From positions 1 through 34,731 of IMG/VR virus record IMGVR_UViG_3300025483_000040: DNA of 34,731 nucleotides; one strand, 5' to 3'. Below are positions 16,349-34,012 of the stretch, piece after piece. The notes below the pieces were generated by a model. It saw nothing but the letters and a program-made list of their open reading frames with translations. It was not told the origin of the DNA and did not search any database. A program made the translations under genes and the position numbers. The stretch is from a virus. Position 1 is the first letter of the stretch. Each line of letters opens with the position of its first letter.

Positions 16349-16555
16349 ATGTCATACATCAAAGTTTCTGGGCATGATGGTCTCGTAAGGGACGAAAACA
16401 CAGGTGCCATCATTAATGTGGACAGCTCTGCTATTGAAGCAAGGCGCAAATCTAAACAATTGAATTCCGCGTTGCGGGACATAAATACGTTGAAGGATGA
16501 AGTATCTGAACTTAAAACCTTACTGCGAGAGTTAATCAAAAATGCCAGCAATTAA
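16349..16555 (+). CDS. Small coiled-coil protein of the cyanophage structural cluster
   Basis: 68 aa. The N-terminal part has GHDGLVRDENTGAIINVDS, a pattern (L-V-R-D-x-x-T/S-G-A-I-I-N) I recognise from small proteins in T4-like marine phage structural clusters. From about residue 30 to 65 it is a charged helix with heptad-like Leu/Ile spacing (LNSALRDINTLKDEVSELKT), so a coiled coil is likely. It begins nine bases after the preceding stop, without a clear ribosome site, and its last 14 bases overlap the next gene, suggesting translational coupling. Its function is unknown; a small chaperone or linker for the adjacent giant proteins is possible but inferred. Confidence 0.85.
   Translation: MSYIKVSGHDGLVRDENTGAIINVDSSAIEARRKSKQLNSALRDINTLKDEVSELKTLLRELIKNASN
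16480..16487 (+). promoter_or_regulatory. Possible internal late promoter before the 1625-aa gene
   Basis: CATAAATA fits the NATAAATA consensus and lies inside the 68-aa gene, 54 bases before the ATG at 16542. It also encodes part of the coiled-coil protein, so a chance match is quite possible. Confidence 0.35.
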
Positions 16556-19500
16556 TGTCGCTAGAACCGACACCTTTGAGATTCAAAGACAAAAAATTAA
16601 TGATATTGGATCTCAAATATTTGGTCTTACACAAGGTGGTAGCGACCTTGCTACAGGCAATTTAAGATTAGGAGATGGGGGTAGAGCAGCTCCATCTTTA
16701 TCTTTCATTAATGACCCAACTTTGGGATTATATAGATCGGGAACCTCTGAATTTGAATACGTTACTTCTGGAAAAAGAATCATCAAATACGGTGGTTTTG
16801 AGAATGTTTCATATAGAAACCTCATTTTCCAAAAAAACTTATTAATTGATAGTGGAGTAACAGTCACTAACGGCGGACAAAATTATGATGTCGGTACATT
16901 TAGTGATGTAATTTTAACAGGTGGTTCTGGCGTAAATTCACGAGCATCTTTAAATGTTGAAGAATTTGTAGGAACTGTTACCAACCAAGGAGCAAATTAC
17001 ACTAACGGTCAATTTTTAGGAGTTCCTGTTACTGGTGGTAATGGCACTGGAGGAATTCTTACTGTCCAGGTTGATGGTATTACTGGTACTATTTCTAACG
17101 CTGGCAGTGGATATGTTCCTGGAACATACACTTCTGTCCCACTCACAGGTGGAACGGGAACTAGTGCTGAAGCAACTGTAACAGTTACTGGAACTGTTAC
17201 TACAACTGGTACTATTTCTAACGCTGGATCTGGGTATGCAGTTAATTCATACACTGGTATTGAACTTTTAAATACACCAACAACCACGTATGCAGTAACA
17301 GCAAATGGCACACCTGCGTTTGTTATTGATAGTTCTACAGCTCCAACATTATCGTTAATTCCTGGAAACACATACAGATTTGATCTTTCTGATGCATCTG
17401 TAGCAGCATACACATTTGCTGTATTTGATGAGTTTGGATTACCTTTAGACAGCAACTACGTATCTTTTGCTAAGGGAACTCAGGGTCAAGCAGGAGCATT
17501 TTTTGATCTAATTGTCAAACCTTCAGCACCAGTAGGAACTTCTATTCAATATAGAGCCAGCAATGCTGCTGATATGGGTGCGCCTATTAATATTGTTTCT
17601 GGTTCTGCTGGAGACTATGGATCTGGCATGGTCGTATCTATTACTGCCGATCCAAACGAAGTTGTTACAAATGTTACAATCACAGATCCTGGTGATGGAT
17701 ATGTTGCTGGTGATGTTCTTACTGTATTTGCTGCAGATTTAAGTTCTCCCACTGCAACTGGTTTTGAATATACAGTTTCTACTGTAACATATGCAGGTAC
17801 GGTAACCGATGTAACAGTTACTGATATTGGACAAAATTATGTAAATGGGGATCCACTATCTGCTTCTAATACAAATCTATGTCCATATGGTGAAAATGTA
17901 GGATCTGGATTTGCGTTTGATGTAACATCAAACCCAGGAAAAGTAATTCTTTCTACATTTTCTAGCAAAGGAACTGATTATACGGTAAATGATGTATTGG
18001 GTATTCCAGGTAGAACTTCTGGTTTAACATCTACTCTAGCAACAGACAATACTACAATTACAGTAACTAGCACTGCTGGTATTGTTCCTGGATCAACACT
18101 AGATAATGTCAGTGGAGCAGGTACTTTTGCTGCTGGAACAACTGTTGTTTCTGTTACTGATGAAACTAATTTTGTAATTTCGACACTTCCAACTGGAGCA
18201 GGTGCAGTAACATTTGATTTAGTCCCGCCATATGGAGAAGGAACTACTGCATATCAATTTACAGTTTCTCGTACTGGTGTTGTAACTGGAGTCACCATTG
18301 AAAGTGGGGGAAATGGATATGAAGTTGGTGACACTTTAAGCGTATTTGCTCCAGATTTAACAACACCCATCACATATACTGTAAAAACTGGCAGTGTATC
18401 TAAGGTTGATTTTACATCAACATATCCTGTAGCGCAGTTTACTGCTGGCGATCAAGTAAAGAAAAAAGATGGTACTATCGTTACAACAACCACAACTAGT
18501 GCTACTACAACATCTCAGGGGATATATGGTCCAGGACTAGCAACCACAACCAGTGGAAACGGTACTGGAGCAACAGTTTCAATTGAGAGAGATAGTAGCG
18601 GTGCTATTATATCAATTGCTTTCATCAATTCAGGATTTTATTATGCTGTTAACGATACTGTCACGATTGCTGGCAACTTAGTAGGTGGTGCTACTCCAGC
18701 TGATGATGTTGTACTTACAATTACTGATGCTACTGTAGAAACTCCAAGAGAAGTTGCAGAGGTAGTATCTGCAGGAGGAACAAACATTGACTATTTGGTT
18801 CTAGATTCAACTGGATATTCTGCTGCAGATATCTTGGTTAAATCTGGTACTACTTCGCCAGAATATACAATCAACACAATTACAGAAACCTCTGACAGAT
18901 TTTCTATTAATACTGGTAGTGGTGATAGTTTTGCTCCAAACTTAACTCTATATTCTGGAAATACTTACACCTTTGATTTCTCTGATGTCTCTAATTCTAA
19001 TGGTGGTCATGTTTTCGCGTTATCTAAATTCAGAGATGGTGCATTTGAACCAAGTAGAATCACTGGTGTAACAACACAACTTGTCACAGCAAATGCTCAA
19101 ATTACAGTAGCAAGCACTGCAGGAATTCTTCCTGACATGACTGTTATTGTTGCTTCTGGAACAGGAACTCTACCAGATGGAACCCGTGTTTTATCCGTCG
19201 ATGATGCCACAACTCTAACACTTGACGAAGTGCCAGCATCACCAGGCGCAGCAACGCTCCAGTTTAATGGAAATGAGTTTACAGATGGTGTATTCAGAGA
19301 TAGCACTGTTACAACAATTCAGGTATCTGACGCAACACCAACTACCTTATACTATTATTGTACTGTACACCCAAATATGGGTGGTTATGATAATACAGAA
19401 ATTGCAATTACCACAGATCCAAATAATCCAAAAACTTTTGGATCTGATTTAGAAATCACAATATCTTCTATTCAATCAGAATCATCTATATCTTTAGATA

Positions 19501-21419
19501 TTGTCAATGGTGCTGTCACTGCATCTGATGTAACAGCAGATGGTTTAACTGCTGGAACAGCAGAAGTTAGTAACACATTAACAGCGCCAAATATCGCAGG
19601 TGTTCTGATTTCAGCAACTAACATTAACTCAACTACAACTTTCAATATAACGTCACCGCAAATTACGGCAGATGGTAATTTTTCTGTTGGTGCTACATTG
19701 CAAGTTGCATCAGTAAGTGGTAATCTTTCTACACCAGGCGAAATTAAAACCACCACCGTCTTTAATTGCAATGATAGATTAACTATCACGAATAATCAAA
19801 TTGCTACTCTTGGAACTGATGATCTTATCCTTGATCCACCAGCAAATAGAGTAGCAAAAGTACAAGCAGACACTGCTTTAATTATTCCAGCAGGTGACAC
19901 TAGTGCTCGTCCCGCTGCTGGTATAGTTGCTGATGGTGCTATTAGATACAATACAGAAACTAACCAGTATGAAGGTTATAGTTCTGGCACTAGCACTTGG
20001 TCTTCTTTAGGTGGCGTAAGAGATCTGGATGGAAATACTTACATTGCTGCAGAAGAAACGGTTGGTGCAAATGATAATACATTGTGGTTCTACAATGACA
20101 ACATCAATACGATTAGGGTTACACCAAATCACCTAGAGTTTGTTAACGTAAAGAAAATACGTTCTATCAACACTTCTGCTCCAGCATATACAGAATGGGC
20201 AGCACAAACTGCAGTTACACAAGGATCATATGTAAAATACGGAAACAATTTATATGAGGTCACAGTTGCTGGTACTACAGGAACTACTGGAACAGAACCA
20301 ACACATGTAACAGGTGCTGCAGTAAATGGTACTGCAACACTTACTTGGAATTCTTTAGCGGTTTCTTCATTAACGTTTGAAGATATCGAAGAGGTCAAAA
20401 TTGGACCCATTACAGATACCCCACTTACTATTTCTGGTGATCTTAGATTAGTAAGCAATGTAATTTCTACCGATGTTAGTGATCTCCTCTTAAGACCAAA
20501 TGCTGGTAAGAAAATAGTAGTTGACTCACTTACCACTTTTACTTTACCTGTAGGAACTGAAACTCAAAGAGGCATTCCTGCACAGGGTGGTGTTAGATTT
20601 AACACAACTTCTAGTCAGTTTGAAGGTTATGATGGATCTAACTGGGGTTCTCTTGGTGGTGTTAAAGACGTTGACCAAAACACATACATTATTCCAGAAA
20701 CTTCCCCTGGTGCTAATGAGAATACATTATACTTCTATAATGACAATAACAAAACTCTAGAGTTGACTACAACTGCATTAGATTTTTACGCAGTTGATAC
20801 GATTAGATCACAGACCAGTGATGAGCTTGAAATCACTGCTTCGTTAATTACTTTTGACAGTGCCGCTACAACTATTGATAATACGGCTACGACAAGAACA
20901 TTCTTACATTCGAGTAAACAATATTTTGATATTGGACTATCTGGTGGTGTAAATGTTGATCCTGTCTTAAGACTTGATGATCAAGGTGATGTGTATTTCA
21001 ACACTGGATTTGGAACTGGCACTTTTAGTGGAGTCAAAGTTTTTGATGGAGATTTAAAAGAATTTGAACTCTCTGATGCTAGAATTTTAACAGACAAACT
21101 CACTTTGATTAAGGGAACAATTGATGTTGTTAATAGCACGATTTACAATGCCTTAACAGAAAGAGGAGCAAAAACAACTGTTATTGCTGAGAACACTACT
21201 ACAGGAGAAAAGGAGTTCTTTGAATTTGGAATTCTAGATGATGGTGCGGATATATACCATACAGAGTATGGAAATGTTAGAACAGGAAATCAACTGATCA
21301 CTCCAACGTTTGAGTATACGTCCAATAATACAGCAAGACTCAATATTGATATTGCAACATCTGTTCTCAATACGCACACTATTAATATTACCGTCGTTTC
21401 AAACATTAGCAAGAAATAA
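16542..21419 (+). CDS. 1625-aa modular virion protein with cupredoxin-like domains
   Basis: Not assignable to a T4 gene with confidence. The N-terminus (DTFEIQRQKINDIGSQIFGL) resembles the short helical start of T4 gp9/gp10-type proteins (K-I-N-x-x-F/I). Next come four tandem G-x-x-Y modules of about 40 residues (104-235) and further such modules near 375-720. A cupredoxin-like domain without copper ligands lies at about 248-356, and one with His823, Cys940, His943 and Met946 at about 784-955, interrupted by a V-A-S-T-A-G-I-L-P beta module. Two knob-like repeats (I-R-Y-N-T ... L-G-G-V-R-D ... N-T-L-W-F-Y-N-D-N) follow near 1110-1200 and 1330-1415, with a carbohydrate-binding-like segment (about 1214-1273) between them. 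The last 80 residues loosely resemble the T4 gp9 C-terminus. The start overlaps the previous gene by 14 bases. A baseplate or fibre role is inferred from context. Confidence 0.8.
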   Translation: MPAINVARTDTFEIQRQKINDIGSQIFGLTQGGSDLATGNLRLGDGGRAAPSLSFINDPTLGLYRSGTSEFEYVTSGKRIIKYGGFENVSYRNLIFQKNLLIDSGVTVTNGGQNYDVGTFSDVILTGGSGVNSRASLNVEEFVGTVTNQGANYTNGQFLGVPVTGGNGTGGILTVQVDGITGTISNAGSGYVPGTYTSVPLTGGTGTSAEATVTVTGTVTTTGTISNAGSGYAVNSYTGIELLNTPTTTYAVTANGTPAFVIDSSTAPTLSLIPGNTYRFDLSDASVAAYTFAVFDEFGLPLDSNYVSFAKGTQGQAGAFFDLIVKPSAPVGTSIQYRASNAADMGAPINIVSGSAGDYGSGMVVSITADPNEVVTNVTITDPGDGYVAGDVLTVFAADLSSPTATGFEYTVSTVTYAGTVTDVTVTDIGQNYVNGDPLSASNTNLCPYGENVGSGFAFDVTSNPGKVILSTFSSKGTDYTVNDVLGIPGRTSGLTSTLATDNTTITVTSTAGIVPGSTLDNVSGAGTFAAGTTVVSVTDETNFVISTLPTGAGAVTFDLVPPYGEGTTAYQFTVSRTGVVTGVTIESGGNGYEVGDTLSVFAPDLTTPITYTVKTGSVSKVDFTSTYPVAQFTAGDQVKKKDGTIVTTTTTSATTTSQGIYGPGLATTTSGNGTGATVSIERDSSGAIISIAFINSGFYYAVNDTVTIAGNLVGGATPADDVVLTITDATVETPREVAEVVSAGGTNIDYLVLDSTGYSAADILVKSGTTSPEYTINTITETSDRFSINTGSGDSFAPNLTLYSGNTYTFDFSDVSNSNGGHVFALSKFRDGAFEPSRITGVTTQLVTANAQITVASTAGILPDMTVIVASGTGTLPDGTRVLSVDDATTLTLDEVPASPGAATLQFNGNEFTDGVFRDSTVTTIQVSDATPTTLYYYCTVHPNMGGYDNTEIAITTDPNNPKTFGSDLEITISSIQSESSISLDIVNGAVTASDVTADGLTAGTAEVSNTLTAPNIAGVLISATNINSTTTFNITSPQITADGNFSVGATLQVASVSGNLSTPGEIKTTTVFNCNDRLTITNNQIATLGTDDLILDPPANRVAKVQADTALIIPAGDTSARPAAGIVADGAIRYNTETNQYEGYSSGTSTWSSLGGVRDLDGNTYIAAEETVGANDNTLWFYNDNINTIRVTPNHLEFVNVKKIRSINTSAPAYTEWAAQTAVTQGSYVKYGNNLYEVTVAGTTGTTGTEPTHVTGAAVNGTATLTWNSLAVSSLTFEDIEEVKIGPITDTPLTISGDLRLVSNVISTDVSDLLLRPNAGKKIVVDSLTTFTLPVGTETQRGIPAQGGVRFNTTSSQFEGYDGSNWGSLGGVKDVDQNTYIIPETSPGANENTLYFYNDNNKTLELTTTALDFYAVDTIRSQTSDELEITASLITFDSAATTIDNTATTRTFLHSSKQYFDIGLSGGVNVDPVLRLDDQGDVYFNTGFGTGTFSGVKVFDGDLKEFELSDARILTDKLTLIKGTIDVVNSTIYNALTERGAKTTVIAENTTTGEKEFFEFGILDDGADIYHTEYGNVRTGNQLITPTFEYTSNNTARLNIDIATSVLNTHTINITVVSNISKK
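16853..17240 (+). repeat. Four tandem G-x-x-Y beta modules of about 40 residues
   Basis: Successive units begin VTNGGQNY, VTNQGANY, ISNAGSGY and ISNAGSGY, and the first three continue through a L/V-T-G-G-x-G stretch. Units three and four are so alike that a perfect 23-base direct repeat remains at 17082-17104 and 17205-17227, exactly 123 bases (41 codons) apart, so frame is preserved. Confidence 0.85.
18892..19407 (+). other. Cupredoxin-like domain with a complete copper ligand set, split by an insert
   Basis: Residues about 784-955 of the 1625-aa protein. LTLYSGNTYTFDFSD precedes GGHVFALS, which supplies His823. The C-terminal strand reads YYYCTVHPNMGG, supplying Cys940, His943 and Met946 in the C-x2-H-x2-M spacing of some type-1 copper sites. 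Between the two halves, about 70 residues (from TANAQITVASTAGILP to LQFNG, roughly 19087-19269) form a separate beta module that is also found near 18040-18220. Copper binding is inferred from motif only. Confidence 0.6.
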
Positions 21420-21968: not shown

Positions 21969-24900
21969 ATGAGTTTTAATATCAATTCCGATAAAGAGCA
22001 ATTTAGAGGTTCAAAACCTCAACTTATCGGTGATAATGAACTAACAATCAGGGGTGGTACAGGGTCTCTGGAAAGAGAAATTGTAAGAACCCAGCTAGAT
22101 GCTGCAACGGGTTTACCTCGTGTTGGTATCAATAGAACTGGAGAAAGAGTAAATAACATCGTTATTACTTCTGGTGGTTCTGGATACACGACTGCTCCAT
22201 CAGTTGCTGTTGATGGACCAGCAACTGCAACTGCATTTGTCTTCAACGGAGAAGTTACTAGCATTGCTGTCAATGATCCTGGCAGTGGATACACTACTGC
22301 ACCAACTGTAACTATTACTGGTGGCGGTGGTCTAGGTGCTACTGCTACTGCTGTTCTTGACACTGTTGATTTTGAACTTGATATCAACGGTGCTATCAGA
22401 ACATCTACGTCAATCATTTCTGATACTGCTAGAGTTTTAAATCTAGATATTGATAATTTTGTTACCCCCGACCTAAATTTAAGAGGTCCAAACCTCAAAA
22501 ATTACGCTAATAATTCTGGAACTCCTTGGTCAGCTGGCGTTATTGTTCAAAAAGACAGTTACAGATGGTTTGGTCAAAACATTTATCAATGTGTACAGAC
22601 TGGTGAAACTGGATCATCAGCTCCAGTTCACTTAGACGGAACTGAAGATAACGGAACAGCACAGTTTAAGCATATTGGATTTAGAGTAGATGACTCTAAT
22701 GCATTCCAATTTGGAGAGACAGGAGACGCTGGTGTATTTCCAAGATCAATCACTCCGCTCCTAGGTGATAGATCTGACAAGATTGCTACCACAGAATACG
22801 TCCTCAACCTAGCAACAAATGATGTTGGTGGTCGTATTTACGTTTCACAGCAGATTGGTTCTGACCTAAACGACGGTCGTTCTGCTGTAAACCCAGTTAG
22901 AACAATTAAAAAGGCAGCACAGGAAGCATGGAAAACTCCTGGCGTCAAAGAAACTATTATCGTTTCTGGTGGAGATTATGTAGAAGATAACCCAATCTCT
23001 CTACCACCAGATTGCTCGGTTGTTGGTGATAACTTGCGTCTGGTACTCATCAGACCTGCCAATCCTGGCAAACACATGATGAAGTTTGGTGATAAAAACT
23101 ATGTAATTGGTGTTACTTATCGCGATCAAATTGATTCCAATGGAGACCCAGTTGCTACTTGGGACTTTGCTATGGTCTTTGACGATAAGCAAAGAATCAT
23201 CATGGACAAAGAAGTCAATGGAGACTTCGGTGTTAACTTCCCCGTTGGACATCAAATTTTTGGACCAGATGAATTTAGAGTTGGATTTCAACAAAACACT
23301 GGATTATCACAACTAGCATCTGGATTAGAAGTAGTTGGTGTTAACACTGGTGCTAGAGCAAAAATTACAGGTGTAAGTTTTACACAAACCACAGGAGCAA
23401 ATGCATATACTACTGGTAGTGTTGATGTTAGATTAACCAGTGGTTCCTTTGTTGAGGGTGAGAGATTTACATATATTTTATCAGCAAGTGCGGGAAGTGC
23501 TCTCAGTGCTCTAACTATTAGTCAGACTGCTGGAGCAAATAAACTTAGATTTACAACCGATCCAACTTCAACTATTCCCCCAGGAACATACGTTTTCCTC
23601 GATGATGTAGACAATAGTAGTTTTGCTTCGGGGTATTATGAAGTTGCAAACATCGATGATGACAACGCGCCAACATATTGGGAGGTCACATTTGTTCCCA
23701 TTCTAAATTCTCCAACTTGGGAAACATCACAAACAGAATCAGTATCTATTTTTGCTGCTAACGTAGTAACTCAAACGTTCGACAGCGTTTCACTTGAATC
23801 AATTAGAGCTGAAGGTGAGGTCGTTTCTATAGACGAAGATTTCATTACAACACTTCCTATCTCAAGAATTGACTTCTCCTTGCAAGGGGATCCAAGTATT
23901 GCAACTGGTGGTTTTCAACAGGAACAATTTGGTAATGCAGAAGACTTAGGTGGTATTGTATTTTACACTAATGCACTAGTTGGTAGATCTAACATCCACG
24001 AGTTCAAAGAAGGACAAGAAATTTTAATTGAAGGACTACCAACAACATCTCCAGACCTCTCTTTGCTGAATGGAAAGCAAAGAATTTACAAAGTTCTAGA
24101 AGATGCTGATGGTCGTGCTAGAAGATTTGTTATTCCTAAGAAGATTCCATCAATTGTAGATGCTAATTTTGATCCAGGAACAAGTGCGATTGTAAAGAAT
24201 TTTTCTAGAGTTGTTACTCTTACTTTACTCAACTCACCAAACTCTTTCCCACTAGCAACTCCTGTCGAAAGAAGATATCAGGATGCTTGTAATCTTATCA
24301 GAAATAATAGAGAATTTATTGCTGATGAAGTAGTTGGTCGCGTTAATGATGAGTTTAAACATGATCACTATGCAGTATACAATGTTGGAACTGATGGTAA
24401 TGGAGACCAAACGTTTGATATTTACTTAGGTCCAACTCAAGATGTCCACACATATGTGAGTGGTGGTACAGTAACATATCTTGGTGTATCCAGAAACATT
24501 AGTGCTTTTACATATGATAACGCTATTACTGGTGTAGCAACCATTACGCTTGCAACTGGATTCAGTACCTTACCAGAAGATTCTATTGTAAAACTAGCAG
24601 ATATTCTGTTGTCTTGTGATGCTGGACAAAAAGTATATCCCTCATATAGTTCACCAACTTCTGGAAGTAATACTGGAAGTAATGGTGACGAGCAATGCCG
24701 TCAAGATGTCGTACACTTCCTGAATGCTCTAGTAAGAGATTTAGAATTTGGTTCTAACCACAACATTATTGATTCTGCCAAGAAATATATTATTGGCGGT
24801 AAAATCACTTACATTGAAGATGAGATCATCCAGAATGTTCGTGCTATCGAATATGCCAGAGAACTTGCAACTTATGCAATGTGTAACTGGAGAACTGGAA

Positions 24901-27900
24901 ATAGAACTACAGCAGATCCAAATTACATTCCACAATATTCTTCTGTAACCAGATACTTTGATGATAGTATTATCACAGCGACTGCTGGCAATCCTGCATG
25001 TGATGATGTAAGATCTGCTATTGATACACTATCATATCTTTGGGTAGATGTTATTTCAAATAACGCTACTGGAACATATCTAGACGCAGCATATTTGATT
25101 GCACGAAATAGAGACTTGATTGCAGATCAAGCTTTAGCCGACACCGAATCGACATATCCATCATTAGGTCTTTCTGATGTCAACCAAAGAAAATGTCGTA
25201 GGGACATCAATATTGTTCTTGGTGGACTAATTAAAGACCTCGTGCTTGGCGGAAACACTGGCATTGTATCCAGCGCAGAATCCTACTTTGAAGGCGCTGC
25301 TCTTTCTGGAATTCCAGAAGCACAAAGACCAGCAACTGTTTATGCATTCCAAAGAGTAACGCAATATGCACAAGATGCAATGCGTAACTGGACTAGTGGA
25401 ACTGCTATTGGAACTACACCAGTAAGTGCTCAATATAATTCTTCTACTGGTCAGGTAAGTGTTACAATCAATGGTCTATCAACTTTACCATCAACTAACG
25501 ATAGAATTGCTTTTGCTGAAGATGCATTAGTCTTTAGTTGTGATATGGGCAGTGGTGCAGCAAACCATGCAAGTCCAGATCGCTTTGACTCCAATTACGG
25601 ACAAAGTTATGCAGTCACTGCCGTAACTGGAACTGTCGGTAACCCAATTACTATTACATGTACTGTACCAAATGCAGGAAGTGCTGCAGGAGTAGCACAC
25701 ACATTTGTCTCTGCTAAAACAGATGCTACGGTTGTCATTTACGATCCAGTAACAGTAGCATCACCAATTCCCAAATTTGAAGATTGGAACATTGGTTTGT
25801 ATTCATCAACACCACTTTGCAGTAATGTTGCTTCTACTATTACTACAGCAATGGGTCTGTTTGAGGACATCCTAGATGGAACTATTGTTCCAGGAGCAAC
25901 TACTCAAACTTATGGAACTTTATATGATACTGCAGAAATTTACACGTATCCAGATTCGTACATCTACGATCAAAACAATGTAAGAATGGCAGTACGTGGC
26001 GATTTTGATGAATTCCCAATCATTGAAGCATCGCCATATACCCAGAATGCTTCGGTTATTTCCTTCTTAGGTGGCGGTGGTGCTCTAGTTGATGGTTCTA
26101 AAGTCAAGCAACCTAACTGTCCTTTCCCTGGTCTAGAACTAGACGGCAGTGCATCTTTCCCAAATCAGGGTAAGTCGATGGTTGCTGCGGCATTTACGAT
26201 CGTCTCCTTTGGTGGTACAGGTTATAAAGTTATCAATGATGGTTATACACAGTTAGTTTCCGTATTTGTTATTTTCTGTACTGATGGTGTGCTTGCAGAA
26301 TCTGGTGGTTATTGCTCTATAACCAACTCCGCTACTAACTTTGGTCAGTATGCATTAAGAGGAACTGGTTTCCGTGAAGAAGCATATTCATTTGACGTTG
26401 GTACTGTAACTAATGTCTCCGCAACTCCAACTGGAAGAACTATCTTAACCCTAAATGGATTGGGCAGAGAACCACTAGAGCATTACATTGTTAAAGTCGA
26501 TGGACATACGAACACCAACACAGAAATTGAATACTTTGTAGATGCTGTTGGTGCTGTAACTGTTGGTCCTCCTTTCTCTGCACAGTTAACCATTGATGAT
26601 GGTACTGGTGGTGGAATGGATCTCACCAACACTGCATCAGGTCAAGCAGTTTCTACTGGTACACTATCAGGACTAACAGTAAGATTACATAGACCATCTA
26701 TTGTCAACTCTTCTTCACACACTTGGGAATTTGCGGGTTCTGGTACTAACTACCTAGCACTACCAGAGAACGGTGGTACTAAGATTGAGGCAAATGAGCA
26801 AGTTTCTCAAGACTACGGTAGAGTTTATTGTTCTGGTACTGATGAACTTGGTGACTTTAAGGTTGGTACATTTGCTAAGATTGAAAACAGAACTGGTGCT
26901 ATTACCTTCACTGGTACAGTTACCATCTCTGAAGTTGAATTCCTGAAACTAAAAGGTGGCGACGTTGTTGTTACTGGTTTCGATGCATCAAATACTCTTG
27001 GTGGAGCTAATGCTTCTGACAGCAAAATTCCAACTCAAAAAGCAGTTAGAGATTACATCACTAACAACCTTGGACCTTTCATCAACAAACCATACTCCAC
27101 AAACGCTGTTCCTAGAGCACTGGTTGAACTTACCGACTCTGGTAAGATCTCTGTTGATCAGATCCCAGCACTTAGACCATTTGAAGTCTTTACTGTTGCT
27201 GATACAGCGGCAAGACTTGCTCTTGAAGGAGCACTTGCTGGAGACATTGCAATCCAACAAGATACCCAAACTTCATACATTCTAAACAATGATCTGGATA
27301 GTTTGTTTGCTGGATTTAATGTTGACTCAACATTACAATTTACAAATGGAGACATTTTTATTGGTAGTGTAACTGGTGGTCGTCTACAAGCAACAGAGTA
27401 TAGACAAGGTGTTGTTTACCAGATTAACATTACAGATGGTGGTTCTGGATATGTAGTTCCGCCAACTATTACTATTTCTGGAGGAAATCCTGGTCTTGGT
27501 GCTATTTCTGCATCAGCATCTTGTACCATCGCAAATGGTGAAGTTGTTACTGTAACAATCAATCTATTCAATGGTTATACAGGTGGTAAAGGATATACCA
27601 CTGCTCCAGAAATTAATTTCTCTTCTCCTCCAGGAGCAGGAACACAAGCAACTGGTAACTGTTTAATTGAAAGTAGACTGTATGGTGATATTGTAAACCA
27701 AATTGCTATTACTGATACAGATACTATTGAGAGTAGTGATACTCCAGCAGTAACAGTCAATCTAACTAGGGTAGTAAATACATCAGCATCTGATGCTAAT
27801 AATTGGGTATCTCTATCATCTAATCAAATTGCTGCCACAGACATCACATCTGGTGTTATTGAATCGGATAGATTAGCAAGTGGTGGCGCTGCAAACTCAT

Positions 27901-30900
27901 TCACATTCTTACGTGGTGACCAAAACTTTGCTTTAGCAGTACAATCACTCAAGGGTGCAGAAACAAGATACTTTGCATTATTGTACAGCACTGCTGCTAA
28001 TGGATCCAGTCAACTTGTCTTCCAAACAAACTCAGATGTTCTAATTGGACATGAAGTTTCAAACAATGTAACAGGAATTCAGGCAAATACAAACGTAACT
28101 GGAGTATTGACCACAGGAGGACTTACTACAGTTTCTCTCAACAATCCACTTAACTCCGCAATTAATGCTGGAACACTAATAGAATTTGAACGTGGAACTT
28201 CACCAATGCTCTTTGAGTCATCATACACTCAAGGAAACTTTATCGATAGTGTAATTATTGTAAATGGCGGTACAGGATTTACTGATGGTCAATTCTTTGA
28301 TGTTGGATTGACTGGTGGAAATGGAACAGGATTGAGATGTAATATAACAGTTTCTGGAAATACTATCACAGAAATTACAGTTACTGACAGTGGAACTGGT
28401 TATAGTTCAGGCGACTTCTCTATTACCTTAGCACCAGCTGTAATTGGTTCTGGATCATCTATGGTTCTAGAAGCAAAAGTTTCCACAGTTAATAGACAGT
28501 ATGCAAACGTTGGTATTGATGTACTTAGAGTAACTGATTTAACCATTTCTTCTGATGAATATGGAACTATTGGTGTTTCTAGATTCAGAAAAGATCAATT
28601 TAATATTGGTCAAGCTGGTAATGGTTCAGTTCAACTAAAAACTGGAGCAGATAGTGGATTAGATGCCGACCTTCTTGATGGCGCACAAGGTGCATTCTAC
28701 TTAAACTCTGGTAATCAAAATGCTGGTACTTTACCGACAGATCGCCTTTCTGGTACATACAACATTAGTATTTCTAACCAGTCTGGTAGTACACTGAGAT
28801 TGATTACTGGTGTTAACAACCCAACATCAAACCCAACTCCAAACAACTTTGTTACTGGTGTTGTTGCTAATACAATCAACAACAATGCTAACTCATTATC
28901 TGATGGTGGCACCAAAAACTTAGTTCTAACTCTAAGACCAGGCGGCAGTGGATTTACTGTTGATGGTGGTGTTAAGCAACTAGCATTCACAGATAACGAT
29001 AACATGTATCTCCGTGGGTCTGGAACGGGAGTTACAACTTTTGGATCTTGGGCTAAGATCTGGTCATCTCTAAATGACGGCATCGGTTCTGGAATGGATG
29101 CCGATAGATTGGATAACAAACAAGGAATCTGGTATCAGAATGCATATAATGTAAACAAAGGCGTATTGGCGGAGCAAATGCTCCCAAGATTTATTGACGC
29201 AACTACATTTAGAGATAGTCTAACACTTAAATCTTATAATGGAGATCTGAGTTTACGAGTTTATGTCAGTGGACAAGTATTAAACGTGTCCCCATTTACT
29301 CCTGGTAGTGCAATCAAGTTCTACGATAGTAGTTCTCAAGCTGCTGGTGATTTTACTGTTGATAATCTCATTATTAATAATGAATCTGATGACACTAATG
29401 ACTATACTATTCTAATTGGTCGCTTGACATCTGGTACTATTGCTACCGTTGCAACCGCAACACAAATTGGAACAGCAAGTAATAGAGTCAATTTTGATTC
29501 ATACAGTTTAGATACTGGAAATTCAATTGATATTGCTAAGTTCCAATCCAATTCTGGAACAGCTGAATTGCTACTTGGTAGAAAAGATGGTAGTTCATCA
29601 TCTCCTGCAATTTACTTCAATTCTTCTACGCAACCAGCAAACTTTAATGTTTCTCTTGTCGCTAGTGGTGGTAACGCTACCGATGGTTCTGGTACTCTGA
29701 ATACTAGTGTTGCTAATGCTGATGGATTTACTATCAATGGACAGAAGATTTGGAACGCGGGAAACATCACATTCCAATCTTCTAATATTGTAAGCACTGC
29801 TGTTCTACGTGATGCTTCTGGTAATTTCTCTGCTAATCAAATTACCGCAAATATAACTGGTTCTTCATCACTTAACGTATTGAAGACTGGTGATACAATG
29901 ACTGGTGGTCTGACGATTACTGGTAATGGATCAAACTTTAGCGTCAGTGGAGTAGCGAATCTACTATCTAATGCTACTGTTGCTGGAGACCTTGCGGTTG
30001 ATACTGACACATTGTTCGTCGATGTATCCACTGATCGTGTTGGTATCAACGCTGGCACTAATCCATTATCTACTTTAGATGTTGTTGGCGATGGTGGAAT
30101 CTATGTTCGCACATTAACTAATGCCGTTGGAGCAAAAATTAGATTCAGTGATCAAATTTCTACTTTAGCTCAAATTGGCACACTGAGATACAATCATTCT
30201 GATAGTAATTCACCAAACTCTGAGTACAGTGAAGGATTCACTATGGAAGGCACAGAGACAGAACTGTTCTTCCGTGTTGTTGGTGATGTTATCGCATCTA
30301 GAAAAATGGGTGTCAACATCAACCGTGAACCAGATTATACATTAGAAGTTGATGGCAGTGCAAGGATTTCGTCCGAACTTAGAATTAGTAATACTTCTAA
30401 TGGTCAAATCAATTTCTACAACAATTCTTCCACTAGATATTGGAGAGTTGGTAGCAATACGCAGTCATCTCAGTTCTTCACATTTGAAGCATCGGATTCT
30501 AACGGTTCAACAACATTCAGTGGAAGTCCTGCTCTTGCAATTAGTGGTGTTAATAACGCCGTTACTATCAACACAACTGCTACCTCTGGCACTGATCCTA
30601 CTAACAATACTGTTAGAAATTACAAGTTCAATGTCAATGGAGACATGAACATTGATGGTCAGTTCTTCCAGAACAACCAAGAGTTTGTAACATCTAGATG
30701 GACACAAGCTCCAAACAACTCTGATATCTACAGAACATCTAAAATTGGTGTTGGTTTTAGTTCTTCTAGGAACCCAGCCTATGCTCTCGATGTTGAGGGT
30801 GAAGCAAACTTAACACAATCTCTACGTGCAAATGGAGATGCTCTTTGGTTGGATACTTACGGTGTAGTTGGAACGACAAGATCAACTCTTGCTCAATCAC

Positions 30901-31004
30901 TATCAATTCCATCTGGAACTAATGCAAGAAGTAATGGTCCATTGACAATTTCTTCAGGAAATACAATTACCGTTGCTAGTGGTGCTTCCTGGACCATTGA
31001 CTGA
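21969..31004 (+). CDS. 3011-aa tail-fibre-like protein with beta-helix and fibre repeats
   Basis: The largest gene. Two G-S-G-Y beta modules (about 65-120) are followed by a carbohydrate-binding-like segment (about 183-235: PWSAG, then NIYQCVQTGETG). A right-handed beta-helix of pectate-lyase type seems to begin near 287 (GGRIYVSQQIGSDLNDGRS) and to resume near 1335-1480 (KQPNCPFPGLELDG, then FPNQGKSMVAAAFTIVSFGG). Between them lie about 900 residues with two helical C-R-x-D modules. After 1660 come fibre-type elements: SKIPTQKAVRDYI, AARLALEGALAGDIAIQQDT, more G-x-G-Y modules, two D-A-D-x-L-D repeats (about 2228 and 2377), and three L-D-V-x-G repeats (about 2690-2955). There is no S74 self-cleaving domain. 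A host-recognition fibre or baseplate-spike role is likely. It may correspond to T4 gp10 or a fibre gene, which I cannot decide. Confidence 0.85.
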   Translation: MSFNINSDKEQFRGSKPQLIGDNELTIRGGTGSLEREIVRTQLDAATGLPRVGINRTGERVNNIVITSGGSGYTTAPSVAVDGPATATAFVFNGEVTSIAVNDPGSGYTTAPTVTITGGGGLGATATAVLDTVDFELDINGAIRTSTSIISDTARVLNLDIDNFVTPDLNLRGPNLKNYANNSGTPWSAGVIVQKDSYRWFGQNIYQCVQTGETGSSAPVHLDGTEDNGTAQFKHIGFRVDDSNAFQFGETGDAGVFPRSITPLLGDRSDKIATTEYVLNLATNDVGGRIYVSQQIGSDLNDGRSAVNPVRTIKKAAQEAWKTPGVKETIIVSGGDYVEDNPISLPPDCSVVGDNLRLVLIRPANPGKHMMKFGDKNYVIGVTYRDQIDSNGDPVATWDFAMVFDDKQRIIMDKEVNGDFGVNFPVGHQIFGPDEFRVGFQQNTGLSQLASGLEVVGVNTGARAKITGVSFTQTTGANAYTTGSVDVRLTSGSFVEGERFTYILSASAGSALSALTISQTAGANKLRFTTDPTSTIPPGTYVFLDDVDNSSFASGYYEVANIDDDNAPTYWEVTFVPILNSPTWETSQTESVSIFAANVVTQTFDSVSLESIRAEGEVVSIDEDFITTLPISRIDFSLQGDPSIATGGFQQEQFGNAEDLGGIVFYTNALVGRSNIHEFKEGQEILIEGLPTTSPDLSLLNGKQRIYKVLEDADGRARRFVIPKKIPSIVDANFDPGTSAIVKNFSRVVTLTLLNSPNSFPLATPVERRYQDACNLIRNNREFIADEVVGRVNDEFKHDHYAVYNVGTDGNGDQTFDIYLGPTQDVHTYVSGGTVTYLGVSRNISAFTYDNAITGVATITLATGFSTLPEDSIVKLADILLSCDAGQKVYPSYSSPTSGSNTGSNGDEQCRQDVVHFLNALVRDLEFGSNHNIIDSAKKYIIGGKITYIEDEIIQNVRAIEYARELATYAMCNWRTGNRTTADPNYIPQYSSVTRYFDDSIITATAGNPACDDVRSAIDTLSYLWVDVISNNATGTYLDAAYLIARNRDLIADQALADTESTYPSLGLSDVNQRKCRRDINIVLGGLIKDLVLGGNTGIVSSAESYFEGAALSGIPEAQRPATVYAFQRVTQYAQDAMRNWTSGTAIGTTPVSAQYNSSTGQVSVTINGLSTLPSTNDRIAFAEDALVFSCDMGSGAANHASPDRFDSNYGQSYAVTAVTGTVGNPITITCTVPNAGSAAGVAHTFVSAKTDATVVIYDPVTVASPIPKFEDWNIGLYSSTPLCSNVASTITTAMGLFEDILDGTIVPGATTQTYGTLYDTAEIYTYPDSYIYDQNNVRMAVRGDFDEFPIIEASPYTQNASVISFLGGGGALVDGSKVKQPNCPFPGLELDGSASFPNQGKSMVAAAFTIVSFGGTGYKVINDGYTQLVSVFVIFCTDGVLAESGGYCSITNSATNFGQYALRGTGFREEAYSFDVGTVTNVSATPTGRTILTLNGLGREPLEHYIVKVDGHTNTNTEIEYFVDAVGAVTVGPPFSAQLTIDDGTGGGMDLTNTASGQAVSTGTLSGLTVRLHRPSIVNSSSHTWEFAGSGTNYLALPENGGTKIEANEQVSQDYGRVYCSGTDELGDFKVGTFAKIENRTGAITFTGTVTISEVEFLKLKGGDVVVTGFDASNTLGGANASDSKIPTQKAVRDYITNNLGPFINKPYSTNAVPRALVELTDSGKISVDQIPALRPFEVFTVADTAARLALEGALAGDIAIQQDTQTSYILNNDLDSLFAGFNVDSTLQFTNGDIFIGSVTGGRLQATEYRQGVVYQINITDGGSGYVVPPTITISGGNPGLGAISASASCTIANGEVVTVTINLFNGYTGGKGYTTAPEINFSSPPGAGTQATGNCLIESRLYGDIVNQIAITDTDTIESSDTPAVTVNLTRVVNTSASDANNWVSLSSNQIAATDITSGVIESDRLASGGAANSFTFLRGDQNFALAVQSLKGAETRYFALLYSTAANGSSQLVFQTNSDVLIGHEVSNNVTGIQANTNVTGVLTTGGLTTVSLNNPLNSAINAGTLIEFERGTSPMLFESSYTQGNFIDSVIIVNGGTGFTDGQFFDVGLTGGNGTGLRCNITVSGNTITEITVTDSGTGYSSGDFSITLAPAVIGSGSSMVLEAKVSTVNRQYANVGIDVLRVTDLTISSDEYGTIGVSRFRKDQFNIGQAGNGSVQLKTGADSGLDADLLDGAQGAFYLNSGNQNAGTLPTDRLSGTYNISISNQSGSTLRLITGVNNPTSNPTPNNFVTGVVANTINNNANSLSDGGTKNLVLTLRPGGSGFTVDGGVKQLAFTDNDNMYLRGSGTGVTTFGSWAKIWSSLNDGIGSGMDADRLDNKQGIWYQNAYNVNKGVLAEQMLPRFIDATTFRDSLTLKSYNGDLSLRVYVSGQVLNVSPFTPGSAIKFYDSSSQAAGDFTVDNLIINNESDDTNDYTILIGRLTSGTIATVATATQIGTASNRVNFDSYSLDTGNSIDIAKFQSNSGTAELLLGRKDGSSSSPAIYFNSSTQPANFNVSLVASGGNATDGSGTLNTSVANADGFTINGQKIWNAGNITFQSSNIVSTAVLRDASGNFSANQITANITGSSSLNVLKTGDTMTGGLTITGNGSNFSVSGVANLLSNATVAGDLAVDTDTLFVDVSTDRVGINAGTNPLSTLDVVGDGGIYVRTLTNAVGAKIRFSDQISTLAQIGTLRYNHSDSNSPNSEYSEGFTMEGTETELFFRVVGDVIASRKMGVNINREPDYTLEVDGSARISSELRISNTSNGQINFYNNSSTRYWRVGSNTQSSQFFTFEASDSNGSTTFSGSPALAISGVNNAVTINTTATSGTDPTNNTVRNYKFNVNGDMNIDGQFFQNNQEFVTSRWTQAPNNSDIYRTSKIGVGFSSSRNPAYALDVEGEANLTQSLRANGDALWLDTYGVVGTTRSTLAQSLSIPSGTNARSNGPLTISSGNTITVASGASWTID
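24270..24895 (+). repeat. Helical module, copy C, interrupted by a beta domain
   Basis: The front part (Y-Q-D-A-C-N-L-I-R-N-N-R-E-F-I-A) ends near 24345. A beta-rich segment of about 115 residues intervenes. The rear part (Q-C-R-Q-D-V-V-H-F-L-N-A-L, then D-L-E-F-G-S-N) starts at about 24690 and ends in C-N-W. A Cys helix, C-D-D-V-R-S-A-I, follows near 24999. Confidence 0.75.
25073..25405 (+). repeat. Helical module, copy D (in fibre protein)
   Basis: Uninterrupted copy: Y-L-D-A-A-Y-L-I-A-R-N-R-D-L-I-A, then K-C-R-R-D-I-N-I-V-L, then D-L-V-L-G-G-N, ending R-N-W. The Cys helix C-S-N-V-A-S-T-I follows near 25817. It is close in pattern to copy B in the gp7-like protein. Confidence 0.75.
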
Positions 31005-31010
31005 TAAATA
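31003..31010 (+). promoter_or_regulatory. T4-type late promoter overlapping the fibre gene's stop codon
   Basis: GATAAATA fits NATAAATA, and its first two bases are the last two of the TGA stop (31002-31004). It lies 22 bases before the ATG of the 54-aa gene, giving a predicted leader of fewer than 20 bases. Confidence 0.75.
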
Positions 31011-31032: not shown

Positions 31033-31197
31033 ATGTCTACTTTAGTATCAAATACAGTAAATATTAAAGCTTTGAAGTTGCCAGTATTGACTACATCCCA
31101 AAGAAATAGTATTTCCAAAACTAGCGGTATGGTGATTTACAATTCTAGTGAGAACCAACCTCAGATTTGGGATGGATCTGATTGGTTGGGTTTGTAA
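31033..31197 (+). CDS. 54-aa single-module protein, paralogue of the next two genes
   Basis: A short gene supported by its own late promoter and by clear similarity to its neighbours. Residues about 20-53 (TTSQRNSISKTSGMVIYNSS, then IWDGSDWLGL) align with residues 22-58 of the protein at 31426 (TTSQRNSLPYQTGSMIYNTS, then VFDGSSWVNLG) and with the whole of the 60-aa neighbour. The pattern R-N-x-x-x-x-x-x-G-x-x-I-Y-N and D/N-G-S-x-W is seen in knob or trimerisation modules of phage fibres. No Shine-Dalgarno-like site precedes the ATG. It is probably a minor virion or fibre-tip protein; the exact function is unknown. Confidence 0.75.
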   Translation: MSTLVSNTVNIKALKLPVLTTSQRNSISKTSGMVIYNSSENQPQIWDGSDWLGL

Positions 31198-31199
31198 TA

Positions 31200-31207
31200 G
31201 ATAAATA
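31200..31207 (+). promoter_or_regulatory. T4-type late promoter before the 60-aa gene
   Basis: GATAAATA lies three bases after the stop of the 54-aa gene and 24 bases before the next ATG. Octamer and spacing are nearly the same as at 31003, as if gene and promoter had been duplicated together. Confidence 0.75.
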
Positions 31208-31231
31208 CATAAGATTGTATCACTTTTAGAT

Positions 31232-31414
31232 ATGTCCACTTCTTCAGAATTATCGGTCTCTAACGCCAACGTTGCAGATCTGGTGAACTTGCTGCCAATC
31301 AGCACAGCAGAAAGAAATAACTTGCCACTAGTGCAAGGAACTTTAATTTACAATCAAGACAGCAATGTTCTCCAGTATTATAATGGAAGCAGCTGGGAAG
31401 ATGTTAACATGTAA
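31232..31414 (+). CDS. 60-aa single-module protein, paralogue of flanking genes
   Basis: MSTSSELSVSNANV is followed by a single copy of the module shared with both neighbours: STAERNNLPLVQGTLIYNQD, then YYNGSSWEDV (about residues 24-58). The protein is small, acidic and without a membrane segment. It has its own late promoter; the ATG is preceded by only a weak site (TTTTAGAT). It could be a cap or tip protein of a fibre, or a remnant of a longer adhesin gene that has lost its distal domain. The reading frame is intact and the product ends cleanly after the module, so I call it a gene rather than a fragment. Confidence 0.75.
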   Translation: MSTSSELSVSNANVADLVNLLPISTAERNNLPLVQGTLIYNQDSNVLQYYNGSSWEDVNM

Positions 31415-31425
31415 TTGCAGAGATT

Positions 31426-32391
31426 ATGTCAACTTTTAATGCCAATAAATTAACCATTACAGGAACTGGAAATGCTTTCCAGTTTCCAAGAAAAACTACT
31501 TCGCAAAGAAATAGTCTTCCTTACCAAACGGGGTCAATGATTTACAATACTTCTGATAATAAACTCCAAGTTTTTGATGGTTCTTCTTGGGTTAATTTGG
31601 GAGCTCCTGCAACTTTGCAAGCAAGTGGAGGTTCTGTAACTACTTATACTTCTGGTGGAGTAACATATCAAGCCCATACATTTACATCAACAGGAACTTT
31701 CAGTGTTACGTCTTCCCCGCCAGGATCATCTGTTGAATTCTTACTCGTAGCAGGAGGAGGTGGTGGCGGATCCGATAGCAGAACTGGTGCTCACTATCAC
31801 GGTGGTGGTGGTGGAGCTGGTGGTGTGTTAACAGGTAATACTGGTGTTAGTGCTACTAACTATAGTATTTCTATTGGAAACGGTGGATCTGGTAGCACTA
31901 ACACCAGAGGAAATAGTGGCAACTCTACTAATTTCAACGGTCAATCTGCTGTTGGTGGTGGTTGGGGAGGACGCTATGGTCAAGGCGGATCTAGTGGAGG
32001 TTCTGGCGGAGGTGCTGGTAGAGATGCTGGTGGTGCTGGAAATGGTACTCCTGGTCAAGGAAACAACGGTGGAAACTCTGGAGGCGGAGGCGGTGGTGCT
32101 GGCAGCAACGCTGGATATCCTGGTGGAAATGGAAGAAGTGTTAATTACAGAAATGGAGGCGGCGTTACCTATGGTGGTGGTGGCGGCGGAGCTCCTCTAG
32201 GCTGGGGATCTAGTGGAGTTTGGCCAGGTGGTTCTGGTGGAGGTGGATATGGTAGAAGTTCTCATGATAGTGGCGGGAACGGACAAAATGGATCTAATGG
32301 TCTAGGTGGTGGCGGCGGTGCTGCTGGTGTTAGATATAGAAGTGGTAATGGTGGCACTGGTATTGCTGTCATTAGATATGCTATTGGTTAA
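31426..32391 (+). CDS. Glycine-rich adhesin-like protein
   Basis: 321 aa in three parts. Residues 22-58 carry the module shared with the two preceding genes. Residues about 60-105 form a beta segment ending VEFLLVAGGGGGG. The rest is about 40% glycine by my count, with runs of four to six Gly separated by Ser, Asn or aromatic residues, and it ends GNGGTGIAVIRYAIG. This matches the widespread glycine-rich domain of phage and bacterial surface proteins (L-V-A-G-G-G-G-G at the start, G-G-x-G-x-x-x-I-R-Y at the end; PF21722 is a likely match). Glycine-rich runs also form the receptor-binding polyglycine-II sandwich of gp38 adhesins in some T4-like phages, so a host-recognition tip is plausible but not shown. 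No late promoter lies in the 11-base gap upstream, so it is probably co-transcribed with the 60-aa gene. Confidence 0.85.
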   Translation: MSTFNANKLTITGTGNAFQFPRKTTSQRNSLPYQTGSMIYNTSDNKLQVFDGSSWVNLGAPATLQASGGSVTTYTSGGVTYQAHTFTSTGTFSVTSSPPGSSVEFLLVAGGGGGGSDSRTGAHYHGGGGGAGGVLTGNTGVSATNYSISIGNGGSGSTNTRGNSGNSTNFNGQSAVGGGWGGRYGQGGSSGGSGGGAGRDAGGAGNGTPGQGNNGGNSGGGGGGAGSNAGYPGGNGRSVNYRNGGGVTYGGGGGGAPLGWGSSGVWPGGSGGGGYGRSSHDSGGNGQNGSNGLGGGGGAAGVRYRSGNGGTGIAVIRYAIG

Positions 32392-32406: not shown

Positions 32407-32934
32407 ATGAGTTACATTGTTTGCAAACAAGACTTTAGAACAAACGAGTGGGACATCAAGTCTATCGATCTAGACACTGGATATGCAGAAGTATTTTTTC
32501 AATTTGTAGATGGTACTGATTGCGTCCAGTTTAAAGATTTGCATTTTGGATACACCTTTTATAAAGATGGGCAAGAGATTCTAAGCGAAGAATGGCCAAT
32601 GGGTCCAAATTCTAAGTATATTTCTTCAGATCAAAAACATTTAGAAACCATAATGCTTCAATTTGAAGCTGAAGAAAATTATAAGTTGCAGGTCTGGTCA
32701 ATAAATGACAAAAAGACCAGCAAAGCATCTTTCCATTTTACTACTGGTAGACCCGACCAACCATTTCCATCTTGGAAATGGAATGCAGAAGCAAAACTTT
32801 GGGATCCACCAAAACCACATCCAGAAAATTTTGATTACTCATTCTATGAATGGGATGAAGTAAAGCAAGAATGGTTCCAGGTAGATACTATGAATTATAT
32901 GATTGATAAATCTGCCGTAGTAGAAGGAGAATAA
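32407..32934 (+). CDS. 175-aa Trp/Pro-rich cyanophage structural-cluster protein
   Basis: The N-terminal 115 residues look like a beta domain (TNEWDIKSIDLDTGYAEVFF, then FHFTTGRP). The C-terminal third has a pattern I recognise in several cyanophage proteins, P-F-P-S-W-K-W-N-A-E...L-W-D-P-P-K-P-H-P...F-Y-E-W-D-E...W, that is, two W-centred turns joined by a proline-rich linker. No catalytic motif, signal peptide or membrane segment is seen. It sits directly after the glycine-rich adhesin-like gene, with 15 bases between them and a strong ribosome site, the position where T4-like phages often encode fibre adhesins or fibre-assembly chaperones. An accessory fibre protein or chaperone is therefore a reasonable inference; direct evidence is lacking. 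Confidence 0.75.
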   Translation: MSYIVCKQDFRTNEWDIKSIDLDTGYAEVFFQFVDGTDCVQFKDLHFGYTFYKDGQEILSEEWPMGPNSKYISSDQKHLETIMLQFEAEENYKLQVWSINDKKTSKASFHFTTGRPDQPFPSWKWNAEAKLWDPPKPHPENFDYSFYEWDEVKQEWFQVDTMNYMIDKSAVVEGE

Positions 32935-32964: not shown

Positions 32965-33162
32965 ATGGACCCCGCACAACTCAAAGCAAATTTTGAAGAG
33001 CAGATTGCTTCCACAGAAAAGCAAATTGCTGAACTAGAAGAAAACCTTGTAAAAGCAAAAGAATATAAACTGAAGTTGGTTGGAGGACTGGAAACTCTAG
33101 GTCTTCTAGAAGATAAACCTGAAGAAGCAGCAGCACCTGCGGCAGAAACAACAGAAGAATAA
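32965..33162 (+). CDS. 65-aa coiled-coil protein with acidic tail
   Basis: The chosen start is ATG 32965 (MDPAQLKANF); the frame also offers a GTG nine bases earlier, which has no better ribosome site. Residues about 5-40 form a strongly charged helix with Leu/Ile/Ala heptad spacing (FEEQIASTEKQIAELEENL), predicting a coiled coil. The last 20 residues are Ala/Glu-rich (KPEEAAAPAAETTEE) and probably disordered. It has its own late promoter and is closed by a hairpin terminator, so it forms a one-gene unit just before the neck genes. Function unknown; the position suggests a minor virion or assembly protein. Confidence 0.8.
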   Translation: MDPAQLKANFEEQIASTEKQIAELEENLVKAKEYKLKLVGGLETLGLLEDKPEEAAAPAAETTEE

Positions 33163-33169
33163 CTCCCAG

Positions 33170-33204
33170 ATCCCTTCTTCCTAAATAGGTAAGAAGGGAT
33201 TTTT
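33170..33204 (+). terminator. Hairpin terminator between the coiled-coil gene and gp13
   Basis: ATCCCTTCTT (33170-33179) pairs perfectly with AAGAAGGGAT (33191-33200), followed by TTTT. The 11-base loop can extend the stem with CCT/AGG. It ends only seven bases before the gp13 ATG, so its right arm also lies in the gp13 leader, where AAGGG is the only ribosome-site-like stretch. Confidence 0.85.
33180..33187 (+). promoter_or_regulatory. Variant late-promoter-like octamer in the terminator loop, before gp13
   Basis: CCTAAATA, one mismatch from NATAAATA, lies wholly in the loop of the hairpin at 33170-33200. With T4 late-promoter spacing, transcription would start near 33194, inside the right arm, leaving a gp13 leader of about 18 bases that cannot form the hairpin. 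Confidence 0.45.
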
Positions 33205-33211
33205 GTGTGTA

Positions 33212-34012
33212 ATGGCGTCTCCAAACTCTAGATCTGATCTTATCACTTATTGTAAGAGACAGTTGGGTGAGCCTGTCTTACAAGTAAACATTGATGATGA
33301 ACAGGTAAATAACGTTATTGATGATACATTCCAGTTCTTTCAAGAGAACTGCTACAATGGCATGGAGCGTGCTTACTTATATCATGAAATTACCGCTGAT
33401 GATAAAACAAGATTTGCTGACAGCATAACTACCACAGAAGGATCAACAAACTGGAAAGAAGCAACCAACTATATTCCTATTCCAGATCATGTAGTTGGTA
33501 TTACTAGAGTCTTTGGTCTTGTTAGCAATTCAATCCGTTCCAATCTTTTTGGTGTTGAGTACCAATTGTTTTTGAATGATCTTTATGCATTCGGATCACT
33601 TGATATTCTGAATTATTATATGAACAAACAATATCTAGAAACTCTCGATATGGTCCTAAACAATGGATCATTTCAACAGTTCAGATTTACAGCACGCCGC
33701 GATCGTTTGTACTTAGATATTGCTAAAGACTTCCTCAAGGAAGGAACTAATGTTCTTATTGAGTGCCACCGTCTCAATGATCCCACAGACGCCACAGAGA
33801 TGAACAATGATATGTTTGTCAAGAAGTATGCAACTGCTTTAATGAAGAGGCAGTGGGGACAAAACTTAATTAAATATAACAACGTTCAACTTCCTGGCGG
33901 TATTACTCTCAATGGTAGAGAACTTTATACAGACGCACTAGCAGAAATTGAGAAAATCGAAAGCGAAGTTCTCAGTAAGTATGCAATCCCACCCATGGAC
34001 ATGATCGGATAA
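33212..34012 (+). CDS. gp13: Neck protein gp13
   Basis: 266 aa from ATG 33212 (MASPNSRSDLITYCKRQLGE). An in-frame TTG at 33203 lies in the T-run of the terminator and is an unlikely start. In T4, gp13 with gp14 forms the neck that closes the filled head and accepts the tail. The N-terminal pattern, CKRQLGEPVLQVNIDDEQVN with IDDTFQFF, and the C-terminal KRQWGQNLIKYNNVQLPGGI with LNGREL are hallmarks of T4-like gp13 (W-G-x-N-L-x-K-x-x-x-x-Q-L-P-G-G-x-x-x-N-G). Length is somewhat under the T4 protein's roughly 309 aa, as usual in cyanophages. gp14 follows one base after the stop, so the two are probably translated together. Confidence 0.93.
   Translation: MASPNSRSDLITYCKRQLGEPVLQVNIDDEQVNNVIDDTFQFFQENCYNGMERAYLYHEITADDKTRFADSITTTEGSTNWKEATNYIPIPDHVVGITRVFGLVSNSIRSNLFGVEYQLFLNDLYAFGSLDILNYYMNKQYLETLDMVLNNGSFQQFRFTARRDRLYLDIAKDFLKEGTNVLIECHRLNDPTDATEMNNDMFVKKYATALMKRQWGQNLIKYNNVQLPGGITLNGRELYTDALAEIEKIESEVLSKYAIPPMDMIG

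Follow-up and report, generated by a model that had tools for sequence, protein, structure and literature searches.

In T-even phages, the gene for the adhesin gp38 follows the gene for the distal tail fibre. As described for S16 and PP01 in the accessible sections of the papers cited here, gp38 is a separate, glycine-rich protein at the tip of the long tail fibre, and in this it resembles the 321-residue protein discussed below (PMC12892980, PMC9608196). Another close system is Mtd of Bordetella phage BPP-1, which has been described as a trimer on the fibre tip (PMC3567102) and is presumed to be fixed to the fibre through its beta-prism (PMC10743442). At its N-terminus Mtd has a beta-prism-like dock, which is followed by a variable receptor-binding part, and mtd lies directly behind the tail-fibre gene. 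At a larger scale, the host recognition clusters and metaviromic islands of marine phages are variable regions in which tail fibres and recognition proteins lie between conserved structural genes (PMC7029224, PMC3909814), and in hafunaviruses a hypervariable tail-fibre region that has been connected with host range contains a glycine-rich adhesin and, beside it, a small gene (PMC8651126). Published work already covers both variable regions for host recognition at this place (PMC7029224) and glycine-rich tip adhesins (PMC12892980).

Here we describe a related locus in a 34,731-nt stretch of viral DNA (IMG/VR record IMGVR_UViG_3300025483_000040, positions 1 to 34,731; hereafter the window), which spans the tail and neck genes of a T4-like cyanophage and whose gp13 has Synechococcus phage neck proteins as relatives. 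Behind a fibre gene of 3011 residues lie genes of 54, 60, 321 and 175 residues, then phrog_580 and gp13. The 54-, 60- and 321-residue proteins share one small module, and the first two consist of little else. We consider it reasonably probable that this locus is a receptor-binding cassette whose proteins have a dock in common, and in which the bare-module proteins serve as a small connector or cap at the fibre tip. The features on which the argument draws are as follows.

16542–21419, + strand: 1625-residue structural protein with two internal module copies (module profile)
19863–19985, + strand: first module copy in the 1625-residue protein (E 2e-7)
20532–20648, + strand: second module copy in the 1625-residue protein (E 3e-7)
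21969–31004, + strand: giant distal tail-fibre gene, 3011 residues (counterpart in relatives annotated tail fiber or tail fiber-like protein)
31003–31010, + strand: late-promoter-like box GATAAATA, 30 nt ahead of gene 1 (sequence scan)
31033–31197, + strand: bare-module gene 1, 54 residues (open reading frame and module HMM)
31066–31188, + strand: module copy in gene 1 (E 8e-20)
31200–31207, + strand: late-promoter-like box GATAAATA, 32 nt ahead of gene 2 (sequence scan)
31232–31414, + strand: bare-module gene 2, 60 residues (open reading frame and module HMM)
31268–31399, + strand: module copy in gene 2 (E 3e-16)
31426–32391, + strand: putative adhesin gene, 321 residues, module plus glycine-rich receptor-binding domain (Gly_rich_2, phrog_2295 and fold matches)
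31468–31593, + strand: module copy in the 321-residue gene (E 3e-18)
31660–32388, + strand: distal domain, residues 79–321, with the predicted fold of the Pam3 fibre and the Bxb1 tail-tip chain
32407–32934, + strand: 175-residue gene, possible partner (full-length homologues in relatives' islands)
32965–33162, + strand: conserved flank gene, phrog_580 (E 1e-20)
33203–34012, + strand: gp13 neck protein, conserved flank (phrog_211, E 1.5e-45)

A profile HMM of the module, built from relatives' sequences with all rows from the window removed, matches five copies: one each in the 54-, 60- and 321-residue proteins (57.9, 44.1 and 51.8 bits) and two within the 1625-residue protein (25.4 and 24.5 bits). 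No further copy was found at E 0.1 or better among 493 six-frame window segments of at least 30 residues. When the sequences of the three genes were shuffled 5000 times each, with only the N-terminal part used for the 321-residue gene, the best scores were 13.6, 11.0 and 11.6 bits, far below the real 58.5, 44.9 and 57.2 bits. The original prediction that three tandem genes carry the same module is therefore borne out, as is its view that two of them contain little more, since the 54- and 60-residue proteins end 3 and 5 residues past the conserved tryptophan. The conserved unit spans about 41–46 residues, rather than the 35 then proposed. Related units had also been proposed for the 1625-residue protein, and both exist, although at corrected coordinates (19863–19985 and 20532–20648). 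The same pair, about 660 nt apart, is present in S-RSM4, Sf-CH1b, S-H9-1, ACG-2014e and ACG-2014i; in several of the five remaining phage loci, the counterpart gene is truncated where the stretch ends. The two copies look like an old fixed pair and, given their recurrence at this spacing in other phages, are not part of the exchanging array.

Profile matches and structure models make the 321-residue protein look like a fibre adhesin. It matches Gly_rich_2 (PF21722) at 59.9 bits, above the curated cut-off of 24.3, and phrog_2295 at E 5e-48, a family in which the module and the glycine-rich part are fused at positions 514–848 of 1183; phrog_30742, named tail fiber protein, has the module at 969–1014 of 1029. 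In the AlphaFold2 model (mean pLDDT 77, pTM 0.75), residues 79–321 match two structures best in VIA-align: a Bxb1 tail-tip chain (9d93_Qb; Z 17.4) and the Pam3 fibre with its TNF-like plus glycine-rich distal part (7ypx; Z 16.2, with an rmsd of 2.4 over 178 residues). The glycine-rich domains of ALK and LTK come next at Z 7–8. Pfam gave no GP38 match, Gly_rich_2 being the only family at E 1 or better, and S16 gp38 (6F45) was absent among the fold matches listed, which does not exclude likeness. Sequence searches of solved structures returned the designed repeat protein 7ong, whose single matches were insignificant, and a weak match to Gp49 (9d83; E 0.38).

For the module itself, the model resembles Mtd residues 5–49 at a middling Z of 4.9 (rmsd 2.1–2.2 over 41–43 residues), and the model of the whole 54-residue protein (mean pLDDT 78, pTM 0.51) gives the same middling value against Mtd. 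Tailspike TSP3 of CBA120 matches with a C-terminal stretch (Z 4.7), and weaker matches go to trimerising units, for example the trimerisation domain of collagen XV (Z 3.9–4.0). The Mtd_N profile of Pfam (PF18454) matched none of 11 records up to E 10, and hhalign of the module against Mtd gave a non-significant probability of 3%, in the same register as the fold match. Since the Z score is middling and the profile finds no match, we suggest that the module may work like the Mtd dock, rather than that it is Mtd_N.

In relatives, the locus is the island of variable content that T4-like cyanophages have between the gene for the giant distal tail fibre and phrog_580/gp13; the annotated gp13 genes begin 9 nt further in than the window's open reading frame. 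The fibre C-terminus was located in 74 fetched loci, which supports the identity of the counterpart of the 3011-residue gene, and 62 loci reach gp13 and form complete islands; some loci are the same contig taken twice, and the gene-length patterns number 44. These 62 islands measure 1,396 to 9,822 nt between the flanks and hold no module gene in 26 cases, one in 12, two in 18, three in five and four in one. At least one module gene occurs in 36 of the 62 islands and in 31 of the 44 distinct patterns; with 26 islands lacking it, the dock is not obligatory. The C-termini of 63 longer module proteins form 25 BLAST groups, an over-count because low-complexity masking splits the glycine-rich ones. 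Pfam domains behind the module include Gly_rich_2, Laminin_G_3 and Fibrinogen_C, and half of the module proteins scanned (10 of 20) had no Pfam match at E 0.1. Some pairs of phages, such as those of loci L012 and L092, have alignable fibre ends and gp13 and share almost nothing of the island. The flanks are thus fixed, and the module genes vary both in number and in the domain that follows the module, as the original prediction had led us to expect.

The islands also hold other genes. In phage S-CAM4 (L091, 12169–13071), a module protein carries a fibrinogen-C domain that scores 28.3 bits against a cut-off of 22. In S-RSM4 (L086, 15001–24035), two module adhesins are separated by a series of genes, of which three carry the annotation 2OG-Fe(II) oxygenase-like, and other long islands are filled by genes of similar sizes. 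Islands without module genes (L015, L044, L097 and kin) often begin with a conserved gene of 377–381 residues, behind which lie genes of about 250, 568 and 213 residues, and are another type of tip cassette at the same place. The 175-residue gene of the window, for which close relatives were sought and none confirmed, has distant homologues over its full length in the islands of L035/L038, L049/L051 and L078 (22–31% identity, E 6e-16 to 6e-9) and partial matches in L006, L016/L108 and L062. The islands with the full-length homologues also hold module genes, in a different gene order, and its product may be a partner of the adhesin or a chaperone for it.

Three further lineages also have bare-module genes, always first after the fibre: in ACG-2014e/i and L023 (61 residues), in S-RSM4 and 16 contig loci (63–65 residues), and in L078/L049 and kin (71–76 residues). 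The gene of S-RSM4 scores only 3 bits with the module profile and was assigned by pattern and position. Among the 30 loci examined, a few of which are contigs already counted under another locus id, the fibre end ahead of the bare-module gene was seen by pattern in 27, by annotation in two (L090, L093) and by tblastn of the fibre end in one (L023). The relatives' genes are under purifying selection, with dN/dS of 0.17 (11 unique sequences, 55 pairs) and 0.20 (4 unique sequences, 6 pairs); single pairs give 0.27, 0.32 and 0.51, looser than their long neighbours at 0.08, 0.17 and 0.23. A distinct dock family for first genes was considered and dropped: a profile of four divergent first-gene N-termini missed the bare-module genes, for which the ordinary module profile gives better scores; the gene of S-RSM4 matched neither.

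Every lineage with a bare-module gene has a full module gene behind it. In the S-RSM4 type, a 350-residue adhesin comes next in 9 of 17 loci, and in the other 8 a 339-residue module gene comes first, one of these contigs ending there. This 339-residue gene is confined to one clade of its lineage and therefore counts as a single gain or loss. The small gene stays and one or two adhesin genes follow, so that it is constant there while an adhesin was gained or lost. The window's own 54- and 60-residue genes, which have no close relative among viral contigs, presumably behave like their counterparts.

Late-promoter-like boxes were called with the T4 late-promoter consensus, which we take to be TATAAATA. 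A NATAAATA box occurs at −29 to −33 of the bare-module gene in all 30 of the relatives' loci examined. In the window, GATAAATA lies 30 nt upstream of gene 1 and 32 nt upstream of gene 2, which upholds the claim that the two genes have nearly the same late promoter at the same distance; a box of this type was sought in the 75 nt ahead of the 321-residue gene and not found. Across the whole window, NATAAATA boxes number seven on the + strand and none on the − strand, each at most about 65 nt before a gene start. We infer late expression and a role in the virion for the bare-module proteins.

In the reading that we favour, the shared module would be a small N-terminal dock, rich in beta structure and of the Mtd beta-prism type, which probably trimerises each protein and seats it on the fibre tip. 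The 321-residue adhesin would join this dock to a glycine-rich distal domain that contacts the host. The two bare-module proteins would be real late proteins of small size, and their most likely role is that of a connector or cap at the tip, next to the end of the fibre. Beside them, adhesins that carry other distal domains would be gained, lost and replaced over evolution. More tentatively, and with some doubt on our part, the bare-module protein might be a universal connector: a free-standing trimeric dock of 54–76 residues, made first behind the fibre gene, by which the fibre end becomes a socket for one or several unrelated heads. If so, heads could be replaced without changing the fibre.

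The original prediction went further in proposing that the array would allow a distal domain to be swapped by recombination at the module, and that the single-module proteins could be caps or parked acceptors. As parked acceptors or remnants, they would be former adhesins without a distal domain, awaiting a new one. The variation in gene number and distal domain would fit such acceptors. The best hint comes from neighbouring 339- and 350-residue genes in four genomes, which share 80–93% of nucleotides over the first 20 codons (60 nt), 60–72% over the remaining module and 43–53% beyond it; this gradient, in one lineage, fits a duplication of old date or the replacement of a head after a start held in common. 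However, between most genes the module DNA has diverged too far: in a chimera search of 1293 pairs with module DNA lengths within 30 nt of each other, unrelated distal domains occurred in none of the 32 protein pairs that reached 70% identity in their module DNA; at 65–70% identity, one of four pairs combined alike modules with unrelated heads. In the window, the DNA of genes 1 and 3 shows a modest similarity of 71% over 68 nt ungapped. What stands of the predicted swap is the variation between fixed flanks; a crossover exactly at the module is weakly supported by the sequences, and whole-gene gain and loss between these flanks accounts for the data as well. Recurrence, near-constant length, first position, the promoter box and a dN/dS of 0.17–0.20 in two lineages argue against inert acceptors, as do the gaps of only 34 nt between genes 1 and 2 and 11 nt between gene 2 and the 321-residue gene, which hold no remnant of a lost domain. 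We regard parked acceptors as improbable.

Two further roles can be imagined for the bare-module proteins. They might be assembly chaperones of the fibre tip or adhesin, made late for trimer folding and absent from the finished virion, which we judge unlikely. A small separate gene beside the fibre and under purifying selection would suit a chaperone, T4 gp38 and gp57A are chaperones that do not become part of the particles, and Pam3 virions contain gp24 and not its chaperone gp25 (accessible sections of PMC9608196). Nevertheless, the occurrence of the module in adhesins and in the 1625-residue structural protein fits a structural part better, and Pfam and PHROG profile searches found no known chaperone family. 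In the accessible parts of two published virion proteomes (PMC10665884, PMC9146016), a counterpart of the small proteins was not found, short of a gene-by-gene comparison. The bare-module chains might instead join adhesin trimers as heterotrimer partners and so set the number of adhesin arms per tip. The module models do resemble trimerising units, and a full module gene always accompanies the bare one, but the codon-aligned modules of the window are only 32–48% identical in protein (43–65% in DNA), so that mixing is not obvious, and we consider this very improbable.

The finding indicates which proteins are likely to contact the host in a large group of ocean phages, most of them labelled hypothetical in the records examined here, and offers a simple rule by which to search for them: module first, head behind. 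Bare-module connectors, if real, would help to answer an open question about phage host range: how fibre tips that are alike can serve heads that differ widely. Against the reading that we favour, one experimental-evolution study found that cyanophage adaptation to hosts was not concentrated in hypervariable regions, according to the accessible text of PMC6224464. The literature searched, mostly without subscription papers, yielded neither a common dock across unrelated heads nor bare-dock genes at this locus.

The accessible accounts of host recognition clusters and metaviromic islands describe no common module and no bare-module genes, unlike the window (PMC7029224, PMC3909814). Hafunaviruses, as presented in the accessible text of PMC8651126, differ in being archaeal viruses and in having the adhesin before the small protein. 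The BPP-1 gene list shows no bare-module genes beside mtd, and the distal domain of Mtd is a C-type lectin, whereas that of the 321-residue protein is glycine-rich and its module escapes the Mtd_N profile. With T-even gp38, the 321-residue gene shares a position near the distal fibre gene, two small genes intervening, and a glycine-rich distal part; it differs in falling outside the GP38 Pfam family and in carrying a beta module, whereas S16 gp38 attaches through short helices (accessible sections of PMC9608196). The distal domain comes close in fold to gp24, the fibre of cyanophage Pam3, over the 178 residues matched at Z 16.2. The Pam3 fibre docks on the baseplate by an alpha-helical N-terminus (accessible sections of PMC9608196), and in its place the adhesin of the window has the module.
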